Positions 2,690-30,688 of a DNA stretch of 64,000 nt are shown here, one piece after another. The position numbers and the translations under genes are program-made. Source of the DNA: Bryobacteraceae bacterium (GTDB lineage: Bacteria; Acidobacteriota; Terriglobia; Bryobacterales; Bryobacteraceae); contig JANWXD010000006.1 in NCBI GenBank assembly GCA_025055455.1, positions 62,001-126,000 of the forward strand, given 5' to 3'. The notes under the pieces were generated by a model. It made no database searches. It was not told the DNA's origin and saw only the letters and a list, made by a program, of their open reading frames with translations. The first letter of the stretch is position 1. Each line of letters begins with the position of its first letter.

Positions 2690-3130
2690 CTAAATCTCCC
2701 ACATGGGAACGTACTGGGCGCGCTTCTGAGCCCAGTCGCGAGCCAATTCGGCAAAGGTGGTGCGATCCAGGATGGCGGAAACCGCTCGATCCACGCTTCG
2801 CCACAGTTCGGTGAAAGGCGTCTCCTCGCGGCCGCGCCGGCGCGCCCCGCGCGAGCCTTCGCCCGCCGGCCCTTCAATATGGCGCAGGACTTCTCCCACC
2901 GTGATGGTCTCCGGGGGACGGGCCAGCAGGTAGCCGCCCTCAGCCCCGCGCCGCGACTCCACAAATCCCCCTTGCTTGAGATTGGCCAGAATCAGCTCCA
3001 GAAACTTCTGAGGAATCCGCTGACGGCGGGCGATCTCAGCGATCTTGACCGGCGCGCCCTGGGGCTGGGTGGCCAGATCAAAGACCGCCTGCAAGGCATA
3101 CTGGCCCTTGACCGAAATCTTCGGGACCAC
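2690..3130 (-). CDS. Rrf2-family transcriptional regulator, CymR-like
   Basis: 146 aa. The N-terminal winged helix '[16 protein letters not shown]', the recognition region '[19 protein letters not shown]' and the wing '[14 protein letters not shown]' are classic Rrf2 features. The protein contains no cysteine at all, so it cannot carry the Fe-S cluster of IscR or RsrR types. This, and its position directly upstream of cysK, favour a CymR-like cysteine/sulfur regulator (in Bacillus, CymR works in complex with CysK). The GTG start at 3130 precedes the conserved '[10 protein letters not shown]' by three residues; its ribosome-binding site is weak. Effector and targets are inferred. Confidence 0.85.
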
Positions 3131-3198
3131 CTGGAATCACCACGTCCTGAGTAGAGATTAGCACAAGCCGCTGCGATTCCACGCGCCCGGGGAGTCGG

Positions 3199-6099
3199 TC
3201 AAGCCTGGAACAAGCGGTCGAAGAATTCTCGGGTGCGGAGCTGGATCTGGGCTAGCTCCACATCGAGCGGCTGATCGTGGAGGTGCTGAGGCGTCCAGCG
3301 GCACACCAGTTCCTGGAGATTGTCGAGCTGCGCTGGGGCGGTGGGCAGGCTGCCTTCCGCGTGTCCGGTGGAAACGCGCAGGCCATGGTCCACGGCGCGA
3401 TAGAAAGTGGCGGCGTCACGAAGGAAATCGGCGTCGGCCCGCTCGAGGTGTCCCATCTTTTCGATGACGTCAATACGGGCGGGAGTATTGAGAACTTTGT
3501 AGAAGATACCAGCGCCCTTCAGCCGCAGATACATCAGAGCGAAGTCGATGTCGTAGTAGCCGCCGCGGCCAGCCTTCAGCGGATTGGCCGGTCCCTGCTC
3601 TCTCTCCAGCCGCATGCGCATCTGCGCCAGTTGCTTGCGAGAACGGCCGCTTTGACCATAGCGCCGCCAGTCGATGTCCTGCAGCTCGTGTAGGAATTCG
3701 GTCCCGCGCTCGATGTCGCCTGCCACCGTGCGCGATTTCATGTAGGTAATGCCTTCCCACGCTTCCGCGTGTTTGGCGAAATACTCCTTGTAGCCCCGCT
3801 CGAGCTGGACCAAGGGGCCCTCCCGGCCATTCGGACGCAGGCGCGTGTCCACGGCGAACATCACGCCCTGGCCGGTGTAGGCGGTGAGCAGGTCGATGAT
3901 CCGCTCCGCGACGCGCGTCCAGAACCGCATTTCGGCGCTGTCCGCATCGGGGAGGATGAAAACCAGATCGGCGTCGGATGCCAGGTCGAACTCGAGCATG
4001 CCGAGCCGGCCTAGAGCGACCACCAGCATCTGGTCCCGGGGCCGGTAGCTCGACGTCACGGGCGGGTGCGCAGCCAGCACGTGCTCGATGGCCATCCGGT
4101 ACACGACGCGGATCACGGCATCGGCCAGCTCGGAGGTGCGCTCGAGCGTCGTAAAGATGGGTGCTTGGAGGCAAATGCTTTCGGCCTGGATCCGGAACAT
4201 CTGGCGCTGAAAAAAGCGCCGCAGTTCGGAGATGTCGCGCGCGGCGCCGGCCATTTCGTCGAAGGGGGGACGCTCCGCGGGATGTTCGCGGACTCTCTTG
4301 AGCTCTGCGAGCAGCTCCGGCGTGCGGATCAACTGTTCCGCAAAGTATGGGCTGTGTTCGAACAGATCGAGGATCCAGCGGGCGAGGGTGGCATCTCCAT
4401 CCAGCCAGCCGAGCCACTCGGGCCGGTCCAAAACTTTCTCCAGGAAGTGCTCAAGGTAGCGCTGTCCCCGCTCCAAGCGTCCCGCCGCCACTACAGCAGC
4501 CAGCCGCGGCGCACGTTGGTCCAGGAATCGGACGAGGTTGCTCGCCGGGGGTTCTACGGCGACCATGCCCGCCTCGGCAACCGTCTGAGAGGCCACGGCG
4601 CCGTAGTAGATCGGCTGCTGCGCGTGAATCACCCGCTCGTAAATCTCTTGCACCTCCTCGAGATGATGATTGAGCCGCTGGAGCAGTAGGGAAGCCGACG
4701 GGCTCGATCCCATCAACGAGGGCGGCATCTTGCGGGCGAGAATTTCCAGCTCCTCCGGATCGGAGGGCAAGGTATGCGTCTGTCGGTCTTCGTCGAACTG
4801 CAGCCGGTGTTCCAAATGCCGGAGGAACTGGTAAGCCGTGGCGAGGCGCGAGTACTCCGAATCCGACAGTAGGTCTTTGTCCCGGAGGCGCGCCAAAGCC
4901 AGCAGCGTGCCTCCATGGCGCACCCAGGGTTCTCGGCCGCCGTGGAGCCGCTGGAGGCACTGAACCAGAAATTCGATGTCCCGGATGCCTCCCCGCGCGA
5001 GCTTGATGTCCATGTCGGAGAGGTTCTTGCGCCGGGCGGCGAGCTTTTCGCTGATCCGGTCGCGCGTGGCGGCCAGGGCCTCTACCGCGGAAAAATCCAG
5101 GGTGGTGGCGTAGATCAGCGGCTCGACGAACTCCAGAAACTCGCGGCCGACCCAGCGGTCTCCTGCCGCCACCCGCGCCTTGATGAGCATCTGCAACTCC
5201 CAATCGCGCGCTCGGGTCCGGTAGTAGTGTTTTGCCCCGTCCAGCGAGACGCAGACTTCGCCCCACCGGCCCTCCGGCCGTAGCCGCAGGTCCACGCGGT
5301 AACACATCCCCTCCGAAGTATAAGTCGAGAGTAACTCGGTGTAGTGGTTGGCGACCTTTTTGAAAAATTCCTTGTTACTGATGCGCACCGGGCCGTCCGT
5401 CTCGCCGTTCGCTTCATAAAGGAACATCAGATCGATGTCGGAGCTGTAGTTGAGACCGCGGCCGCCCAACTTACCCAGCGCGATGACGGCGAAACCGCTT
5501 TCCCTCCGCTCATCGCCGGGCGCCGTACATAGGGGCGCGCCGTGCCGGCGGACCAAGTCCTGACGGATCCGCCGGAGGACCACCTCCAGGACGGCGTCGG
5601 CCAAGTTGGACAACTCCTCGGTGGCTTCGGCCAGCGTGGCAAAGCCCAGGACGTCGCGCAGCAGGATGCGCAGAATCTGCCGGCGCCGGAAAACGGCCAA
5701 ACACCGAGGTTCCGGAACGCCAGGCATACTGAGAATCCGCTCCAGGCGTTCTCGGTACTCCTCCGGGGAGAGCATGCGGTGCATTTCCGGGCTGCCGGCC
5801 AGCTCCTCGAGCCACTCGGGGTGTTTGACAAGTTCCTCCGAAAGAAAGCGACTGTAGGCAAAGACCGTGACGAGATACTGCAGACCCGAGGCGGATGCGC
5901 TCAGGCGGAGGAAGGAGTCCGGGTGCTCGGCGCGCAACCGGTCGAGGTAATGGAGAGCTTCGTCGGGATCCGGGCAGGCCGCCAACAGGCTTTGCAGGCG
6001 GACCCGAACCCCCTCGGGCAGCTCCGCAGCTAGGGAAGCGACCCGGGCCGCGGCGCGATCCGGGTCGCGAAACTTCACCGCCTCCAAAAGGTGCTGCAT
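3199..6099 (-). CDS. glnE: Bifunctional glutamine synthetase adenylyltransferase/adenylyl-removing enzyme
   Basis: 966 aa, the full family length. Two nucleotidyltransferase domains are visible: an N-terminal adenylyl-removing domain with 'LGKLGGRGLNYSSDIDLMF' around residues 208-226 and a C-terminal adenylyl-transferring domain with 'LGRLGMLEFDLASDADLVF' near residue 700, each with the paired metal-binding aspartates. A helical region lies between and another follows each domain. GlnE adds or removes AMP on the regulatory tyrosine of type I glutamine synthetase in response to PII. It is 67 bp downstream of glnA on the same strand, so enzyme and target are probably cotranscribed. No PII gene is in the window. 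Confidence 0.95.
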   Translation of the reverse strand: MQHLLEAVKFRDPDRAAARVASLAAELPEGVRVRLQSLLAACPDPDEALHYLDRLRAEHPDSFLRLSASASGLQYLVTVFAYSRFLSEELVKHPEWLEELAGSPEMHRMLSPEEYRERLERILSMPGVPEPRCLAVFRRRQILRILLRDVLGFATLAEATEELSNLADAVLEVVLRRIRQDLVRRHGAPLCTAPGDERRESGFAVIALGKLGGRGLNYSSDIDLMFLYEANGETDGPVRISNKEFFKKVANHYTELLSTYTSEGMCYRVDLRLRPEGRWGEVCVSLDGAKHYYRTRARDWELQMLIKARVAAGDRWVGREFLEFVEPLIYATTLDFSAVEALAATRDRISEKLAARRKNLSDMDIKLARGGIRDIEFLVQCLQRLHGGREPWVRHGGTLLALARLRDKDLLSDSEYSRLATAYQFLRHLEHRLQFDEDRQTHTLPSDPEELEILARKMPPSLMGSSPSASLLLQRLNHHLEEVQEIYERVIHAQQPIYYGAVASQTVAEAGMVAVEPPASNLVRFLDQRAPRLAAVVAAGRLERGQRYLEHFLEKVLDRPEWLGWLDGDATLARWILDLFEHSPYFAEQLIRTPELLAELKRVREHPAERPPFDEMAGAARDISELRRFFQRQMFRIQAESICLQAPIFTTLERTSELADAVIRVVYRMAIEHVLAAHPPVTSSYRPRDQMLVVALGRLGMLEFDLASDADLVFILPDADSAEMRFWTRVAERIIDLLTAYTGQGVMFAVDTRLRPNGREGPLVQLERGYKEYFAKHAEAWEGITYMKSRTVAGDIERGTEFLHELQDIDWRRYGQSGRSRKQLAQMRMRLEREQGPANPLKAGRGGYYDIDFALMYLRLKGAGIFYKVLNTPARIDVIEKMGHLERADADFLRDAATFYRAVDHGLRVSTGHAEGSLPTAPAQLDNLQELVCRWTPQHLHDQPLDVELAQIQLRTREFFDRLFQA

Positions 6100-29996: not shown

Positions 29997-30296
29997 TCAG
30001 TCGGCGTTCAGCGCCCGTTCGAGCGCGGAGGCCAAATCCTCCTTGCCGAGCGTCGTGCTGATGAACAATTCTTGCCGCGCCCCTGCCGCGAGCGCGATCG
30101 CCTTCCAGCCGTTGGTCGTCGGCACCGTGACGCGGATTTTGATCTTTCCCTTCGCCTGCCGCACGGGCCGGATCACGCCCGGAATCACCGAACGGACTTC
30201 GGCATTGTCGGCGAGCAACCGCTCGAGCACCGGCCGCAATCCCTCGAGGATGCTGTGCTCGACCTTCAGCCGGCCTTGCGCCGTCCTCGACCGCAC
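29997..30296 (-). CDS. DUF2103-like predicted metal-binding protein
   Basis: 99 aa. 'VEHSILEGLRPVLERLLAD', 'VRSVIPGVIRPVRQAKGKIK' and 'VTVPTTNGWKAIALAAGARQ' resemble the DUF2103 family of small predicted metal-binding proteins. The GTG start at 30296 lies 4 bp after the stop of the ArsC/Spx-like gene, with AAAGGT seven bases upstream inside that gene's end, so the two share a transcript and are translationally coupled. The function of the family is not known. Confidence 0.55.
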   Translation of the reverse strand: MRSRTAQGRLKVEHSILEGLRPVLERLLADNAEVRSVIPGVIRPVRQAKGKIKIRVTVPTTNGWKAIALAAGARQELFISTTLGKEDLASALERALNAD

Positions 30297-30300
30297 GGGT

Positions 30301-30639
30301 TCAACCTTTCACCAGCCGCTCGTACTCCTCCTGGGCGAAACCGGTCAGGAGGCGCTTCCCCTTGACCAGAATCGGCCGCCGGATCAGGTTCGGATCCTTC
30401 GCCATCAAACGCAAAGCCTCGGCGCGGCTCGGTGGGTTCTGCTTCATCTTGCGCTCGCGGTATAGCGGGTGCTTGGGATTCAGAAACTGCGTGTAGTCGC
30501 GTTCGCCGATGAGCGCCTCGAGCTCCTCGACGCTCAATCCCCGGCTGAGGTCCACCTCCTCGAAGACGACCCCTTTATCGCGCAGGAAACTCCTGGCCTT
30601 TCGGCAGGTCGTTCAGGTCGGTTTCAGATACAGCCGCAT
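30301..30639 (-). CDS. ArsC/Spx-like thioredoxin-fold protein with in-frame TGA, probable selenoprotein
   Basis: 112 codons from ATG 30639, read through a TGA at codon 9 (30615-30613). The N-terminus is M-R-L-Y-L-K-P-T-(TGA)-T-T-C-R-K-A-R, which is the ArsC/Spx/YffB motif 'KPTCTTCRKAR' with TGA at the first, nucleophilic Cys. The rest ('SFLRDKGVVFEEVDLSRG', 'LIRRPILVKGKRLLTGF') is an intact ArsC fold of normal length. A hairpin with a GUU loop lies 22 bases after the TGA and a good promoter upstream. Selenocysteine insertion is the best reading; a sequencing error or a nonsense mutation of a TGC codon are the alternatives. A restart at GTG 30555 would delete the active site. Confidence 0.75.
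30580..30597 (-). promoter_or_regulatory. Candidate bacterial SECIS hairpin
   Basis: In the mRNA, 22 bases after the TGA, CAGGA (30595-30591) pairs with UCCUG (30587-30583) around the 3-base loop GUU (30590-30588); two more G-C pairs extend the stem past a single bulged C. A short stem with G at the first loop position, about 16-37 bases after UGA, is the geometry described for bacterial SECIS elements read by SelB. The hairpin lies inside the coding frame, as it does in bacteria. Confidence 0.6.
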
Positions 30640-30659
30640 CGTGGCTTGTCGAGAAGACG

Positions 30660-30688
30660 AGTATAGTGGCAGCGGCCGGTGCGGTCAA
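30660..30688 (-). promoter_or_regulatory. Sigma-70-type promoter of the putative selenoprotein gene
   Basis: On the minus strand TTGACC (30688-30683) and TATACT (30665-30660) are separated by exactly 17 bp. The -35 overlaps the stop codon of the upstream dCMP deaminase gene. Transcription would start about 13 bases before the ATG at 30639, so the leader is very short and no clear Shine-Dalgarno is visible. Confidence 0.75.

Follow-up and report, generated by a model that had tools for sequence, protein, structure and literature searches.

On the minus strand of the window (the whole 64,000-nucleotide stretch analysed, from a contig of a Bryobacteraceae genome), positions 30301–30639 hold a gene for a 112-residue protein of the ArsC/Spx superfamily, provided that an in-frame UGA is read as an amino acid; its assignment as a selenoprotein gene draws on the open reading frame, family scores, 41 orthologues and a structural model. 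The frame starts at ATG 30639 and ends at an ordinary stop, TGA 30303–30301. The internal TGA (minus strand, 30615–30613) is codon 9, and reading through it gives the N-terminus MRLYLKPT-U-TTCRKARSFL, with the motif U9-T-T-C12. As the original prediction had it, this is the place of the first Cys in the CxxC motif of the ArsC/Spx family: when the UGA is translated as an amino acid, the protein scores 66.9 bits against Pfam ArsC (PF03960; cut-off 24), and it scores 34.2 bits against Pfam Glutaredoxin (cut-off 22.9). In a mechanical listing of open reading frames the gene is reduced to an 84-residue fragment starting 3' of the active site, and since such a fragment is without the catalytic residue, the active site is easily missed in annotation. 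Just upstream lies the predicted promoter-like sequence that had been pointed out, TTGACC-N17-TATACT (30688–30660, minus strand), which is a consensus match at 10 of 12 positions (one found, against a shuffle mean of 0.2) and overlaps the stop codon of the upstream gene. A general reassignment of UGA can be ruled out, since the selenoprotein gene and the upstream deaminase gene both terminate in TGA and machinery for selenocysteine (Sec) is encoded.

That machinery is complete in the host assembly (3.95 Mb in 145 contigs, 98.75% complete), where the recommended searches found a tRNA-Sec (75.5 bits, cut-off 47; anticodon TCA according to ARAGORN), selB (346.7 bits, cut-off 242.25), selA (513.7 bits, cut-off 267.9) and selD (378 bits, cut-off 125), so that the absence of selB or tRNA-Sec, named in the original prediction as a ground for abandoning it, does not apply. 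The tRNA-Sec model also matches all 14 control genomes, five of them above its cut-off. Several of these controls are, we presume, without Sec, and because of their matches tRNA-Sec was counted as present in relatives only at 58 bits or more. The host SelD (contig C79; L042:1501–2424) has an in-frame TGA of its own, in the context AAG-U-ASKLS, and is probably a Sec-containing selenophosphate synthetase.

Orthologues were sought in 101 genomes, the host included. There was a match at E 0.001 in 53 of them, consisting of 41 clear orthologues (E 5e-31 or better) and 12 weaker matches, and PF03960 matches all 41 members of the resulting alignment at E 0.001. Codon 9 is TGA in 34 of the 41 and TGT or TGC in the other seven. 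The frame is intact and homologous on both sides of the TGA, as had been claimed, through all 112 residues of the window protein, and the downstream frames of the relatives are likewise intact rather than decayed, decay having been a second declared ground for doubt. Eighteen positions are invariant in the 41-row alignment, among them 9 (Sec or Cys), C12, R13, R61, R88 and P89. A tRNA-Sec of at least 58 bits is present in 33 of the 34 TGA genomes (the exception, G052, is 91% complete and has a best match of 50.4 bits) and in six of the seven Cys genomes (in G077 the best match is 49.5 bits). Among the matches listed, record titles are mainly from Acidobacteriota (Bryobacterales, Solibacter, Terriglobia, Acidiferrales) and also from Binataceae, with some from Deltaproteobacteria, Proteobacteria, Betaproteobacteria, Bacillota or Arcobacter. 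When 297 genomes were drawn from the phylum, 41 had a match at 1e-15, and 20 of these 41 had a TGA somewhere inside it, at any position.

Of one set of 18 stretches that were extracted, 11 were orthologues, L058 belonged to another family and was excluded, and six (L057 and L059–L063) gave no match at E 0.01. A pattern scan of 84,980 species genomes supplied a list of the best 80 loci, in which the mix of Sec and Cys forms is no census because one of the two scan patterns contains the Cys motif. The first 38 of these (L064–L101) were used; the other 42, at most 35% identical and titled Bacillota (e.g. Enterococcus, Lactobacillus), were left out. The 41 orthologues and these 38 loci make 79 genes, of which 70 are distinct (52 Sec, 18 Cys).

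The window gene also has a SECIS-like hairpin, GC-CAGGA-GUU-UCCUG-(C)-GC (minus strand, 30580–30597), recognised in a 60-base fold and by a hairpin scan. Its core is CAGGA-GTT-TCCTG, extended in the 60-base fold by a further GC/GC pair outside it and a single bulged C, and its apical loop (30590–30588) starts after 22 bases from the UGA. A bacterial SECIS element is expected to have a G within the first two positions of the loop, and the loop about 16–37 nt from the UGA. The GUU-loop hairpin described in the original prediction is thus present, with its GTT loop at 22 nt, but the weight placed on this single copy, as a coincidence too improbable for a decayed gene, was misplaced: compared with synonymous recodings of the window gene it is within chance (z −1.07, P 0.22), and in a 45-base fold (z −1.13) the minimum-energy structure differs from the hairpin. 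The evidence lies instead in the relatives, in the contrast between Sec and Cys genes.

For that comparison, bases 13–36 after codon 9 were folded separately for each of the 70 distinct genes. The Sec genes (n=52) have a mean energy of −9.8 kcal/mol and a mean z of −2.61 against synonymous recoding, and the Cys genes (n=18) −3.3 kcal/mol and −0.07, respectively. The two classes are completely separated by fold energy (Sec at or below −6.5, Cys at or above −6.4 kcal/mol), although the gap is narrow and the threshold was set afterwards. With a bSECIS-type score, P 0.05 is attained by 30 of the 52 Sec genes and by none of the 18 Cys genes, and the loop opens with GT in 49 of 52 as against 1 of 18. 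The codon for Ser17 is AGT in all 38 Sec genes and AGC in all three Cys genes that have it, AGT accounting for just 13 of 215 Ser codons further downstream in the same genes. In eight independent Sec/Cys pairs, the threshold set afterwards gives 8.0 pairs in which the fold accompanies Sec (p 0.008); with a median-energy threshold, 5.2 of the same pairs favour the association without any contrary pair (sign test, median p 0.06), and for the GT loop the corresponding values are 5.8 and none (median p 0.03). A fixed pairing scheme applied to 34 Sec rows leaves 71.3% of cells paired, with modest covariation (0.176, versus 0.189 when the scheme is slid by +1), which we read as reflecting at least two stem registers. 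Between groups the stem is displaced by one base, which makes a single scheme a poor test, hence the per-sequence scoring. One Cys form, from Blastocatellia (L099, match 3001–3333), has a hairpin at the SECIS position, GCAAGAA-GCT-TTCTTGT (P 0.09), which is possibly a leftover of a change from Sec to Cys, or else due to chance.

These comparisons bear on the simplest objection, that the window gene is a decayed or mis-assembled Cys gene in which TGA represents a nonsense mutation or a sequencing error for TGC or TGT. The codons differ by a single base, the assembly is broken into its 145 contigs, and the hairpin of the window copy is not significant in itself; against this must be set the same-codon TGA and intact frames of 33 other genomes, the complete Sec machinery of the host, and a fold energy that, with the threshold set after the event, tracks TGA in all of the distinct genes (70 of 70). 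We reject decay or assembly error on the strength of the TGA shared with relatives, and give it very little credence. The window gene is very probably a selenoprotein gene rather than a decayed one, and the alignment supports the view that Sec9 replaces the nucleophile Cys of an ArsC/Spx-type protein. Sec at this position would plausibly make a stronger reductant, as predicted from its chemistry.

On the best protein tree (70 rows, 111 columns, with many unresolved forks), the Sec/Cys label requires 11 changes, eight of them forced by well-supported branches. From this, the family appears to have exchanged Sec and Cys several times. A single orthologous protein with at least eight well-supported switches, and with a hairpin linked to the Sec state, makes a clean comparative set, on which SECIS predictors could be tested and the retention of selenium in some lineages, and its abandonment in others, could be studied.

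What might such a protein do? Modelled with AlphaFold from the 41-row alignment, Sec being replaced by Cys, the protein gives a confident structure (mean pLDDT 95.8). Among the Foldseek hits, for which alone structural Z scores were computed, the best solved fold is the ArsC-related 3gkx (Z 17.1, rmsd 2.1, 110 residues aligned), followed by Spx 3ihq (Z 15.9, rmsd 2.4, 109 aligned), YffB 1rw1 (Z 15.8, rmsd 2.7, 111 aligned) and Escherichia coli ArsC 1i9d (Z 14.1, rmsd 2.5, 111 aligned). By sequence, the closest solved proteins are Spx (best E 1e-14), and the top NCBIfam model is TIGR01617, for Spx/MgsR, whose cut-off is passed (78.5 versus 75.05 bits). The window protein shares with that group the position of its CxxC motif as well as the fold, and it could be imagined as an Spx-like regulator that binds RNA polymerase, with U9xxC12 as a redox switch and Sec speeding the sensor. 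Yet against the Spx model NF002459 the protein scores 59.2 bits, below the cut-off of 123, and of four other family members scanned, only L030 passes TIGR01617 (76.3 bits), the other three falling short (61.4, 73.7 and 63.4). Moreover, Spx proteins have Cys, not Sec, at this place, and Arg47 and Gly52 of Spx, which we take to be its contacts with the alpha-CTD of RNA polymerase, align (in an alignment read by hand) with Gly45 and Tyr49 of the window protein, which falls some 20 residues short of Spx in length and does not keep its C-terminal tail. A role as a regulator of this kind seems unlikely. A selenium-dependent arsenate reductase seems more improbable still: Pfam ArsC membership and the resemblance to E. 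coli ArsC would be in keeping with it, but the arsenate reductase model TIGR00014 is not reached (37.8 of 106.05 bits), no ars family was found among the seven window neighbours scanned, and the neighbour that does recur in relatives is a rhodanese. Because TIGR00014 and NF002459 are both missed and the Spx contact residues are replaced, the protein is most likely a thiol/selenol oxidoreductase using the Sec9–Cys12 pair, and arsenate reduction and RNA polymerase binding are less likely functions. Taking all these comparisons of sequence together, we consider it highly likely that the gene specifies a small thioredoxin-fold oxidoreductase of ArsC/Spx type, UGA codon 9 being decoded as Sec.

The immediate neighbours in the window were considered as a clue to function and set aside: the upstream deaminase gene, the downstream DUF2103 gene and ubiE adjoin the family in none of 78 other loci (the flanks inspected were mostly 1.5–3 kb, some being ended by contig ends). 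The DUF2103 gene, just downstream (29997–30296, minus strand; 44.6 bits), is small and encodes a predicted metal-binding protein.

The recurrent association is with a single-domain rhodanese, which in 25 of the 70 loci (18 of the 52 with Sec and 7 of the 18 with Cys) is encoded immediately upstream in the same orientation, its end lying 29–172 bases before codon 9. The three of these rhodaneses that were scanned match PF00581 at 52.7–70 bits. Because the rhodanese recurs directly upstream, we infer a role for the selenoprotein near sulphane-sulphur or persulphide chemistry. In its most specific form, the oxidoreductase would be a persulphide or sulphane-sulphur reductase, or a rhodanese partner, in which Sec9 removes or reduces rhodanese-borne sulphur. 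The adjacency, seen with Sec and Cys forms alike, speaks for this; on the other hand, no rhodanese lies beside the gene in 45 of the 70 loci, the window locus among them, adjacency is no proof of substrate, and the loci are related, so that 25 cases are not 25 independent events. We offer this form as a possibility that falls somewhat short of an even chance. The nearest host homologue of the neighbour rhodanese is 54% identical and lies on a different contig. A rhodanese-like gene of the host (L145:1501–1773, G000:C52:34693–34965) has an in-frame TGA at the expected active-site Cys, ITA-U-NRGARA, and is probably a second selenoprotein gene of the same genome; Sec rhodaneses are already catalogued in a 2026 review (PMC13188914).

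The conserved-domain entry cd03032 we take to be ArsC_Spx. ArsC-like selenoproteins as such are already in print: UxxS arsenate reductase selenoproteins were reported from the Sargasso Sea (PMC1088965), ArsC-like selenoproteins were published in 2006 (PMC1794560), a 2008 survey of Global Ocean Sampling data described 'Arsenate reductase 2' (cd03032, UxxC, 42 Sec sequences together with Cys forms; PMC2398784), and UxxC ArsC-like selenoproteins figure in a 2022 review (PMC9312934). The 2026 review names a UxxC group, NF041106, which it credits to the 2008 survey (PMC13188914). The original prediction of a probable new selenoprotein is therefore upheld as to selenoprotein and only partly as to new, UxxC ArsC-like examples having been published while NF041106 (ArsC_rel_Se_1) is missed by the window protein (38.1 of 85 bits). 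NF041106 is similar in having UxxC at the same place in an ArsC-superfamily protein, and NCBI curates its members as having either Sec or Cys, but a candidate second ArsC-like selenoprotein of one relative (L058:2001–2315, motif UKTC), which does meet this model (103.8 bits), is only 34% identical to the window protein. Judged by this model, which L058 meets and the window protein misses, the two belong to separate groups. 'Arsenate reductase 2' resembles the window family in its superfamily, its UxxC motif and its Sec and Cys forms, but it comes from marine metagenomes and is compared here by its published description, NF041106 (the model credited to it) being missed (PMC2398784; PMC13188914). 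The Sargasso UxxS proteins likewise have Sec at the ArsC nucleophile, but have Ser for the second Cys and are placed in the 2026 review under TIGR00014, which the window protein does not reach (PMC1088965; PMC13188914). The part of the literature examined gives no description of a Spx-like UxxC branch, which may so far be unlisted.

Were the oxidoreductase reading correct, SelB and tRNA-Sec would decode UGA at codon 9 as Sec, directed by the hairpin whose start lies some 15 bases downstream of that codon. Sec9 would then attack as the nucleophile and Cys12 serve as the thiol that resolves the intermediate, with a Se–S bond formed in each cycle and reduced, presumably, by thioredoxin or a low-molecular thiol. 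The substrate may be a persulphide or a similar sulphane-sulphur species, as the rhodanese adjoining about one-third of loci would suggest, and this adjacency offers a concrete, testable suggestion as to substrate within a class of selenoproteins that the 2026 review describes as largely uncharacterized in function (PMC13188914). More speculatively, and with more doubt than we attach to the persulphide activity itself, there may be a distinct Spx-like Sec branch across Acidobacteriota and Binatota-type outliers, falling below every Sec-aware NCBIfam cut-off that it hits, and working together with a dedicated rhodanese to reduce persulphides, or to relay sulphur, in a selenium-dependent way. 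If this is true, the repeated exchange of Sec and Cys in the family, with accompanying loss or gain of the hairpin, would constitute a natural experiment on Sec decoding.
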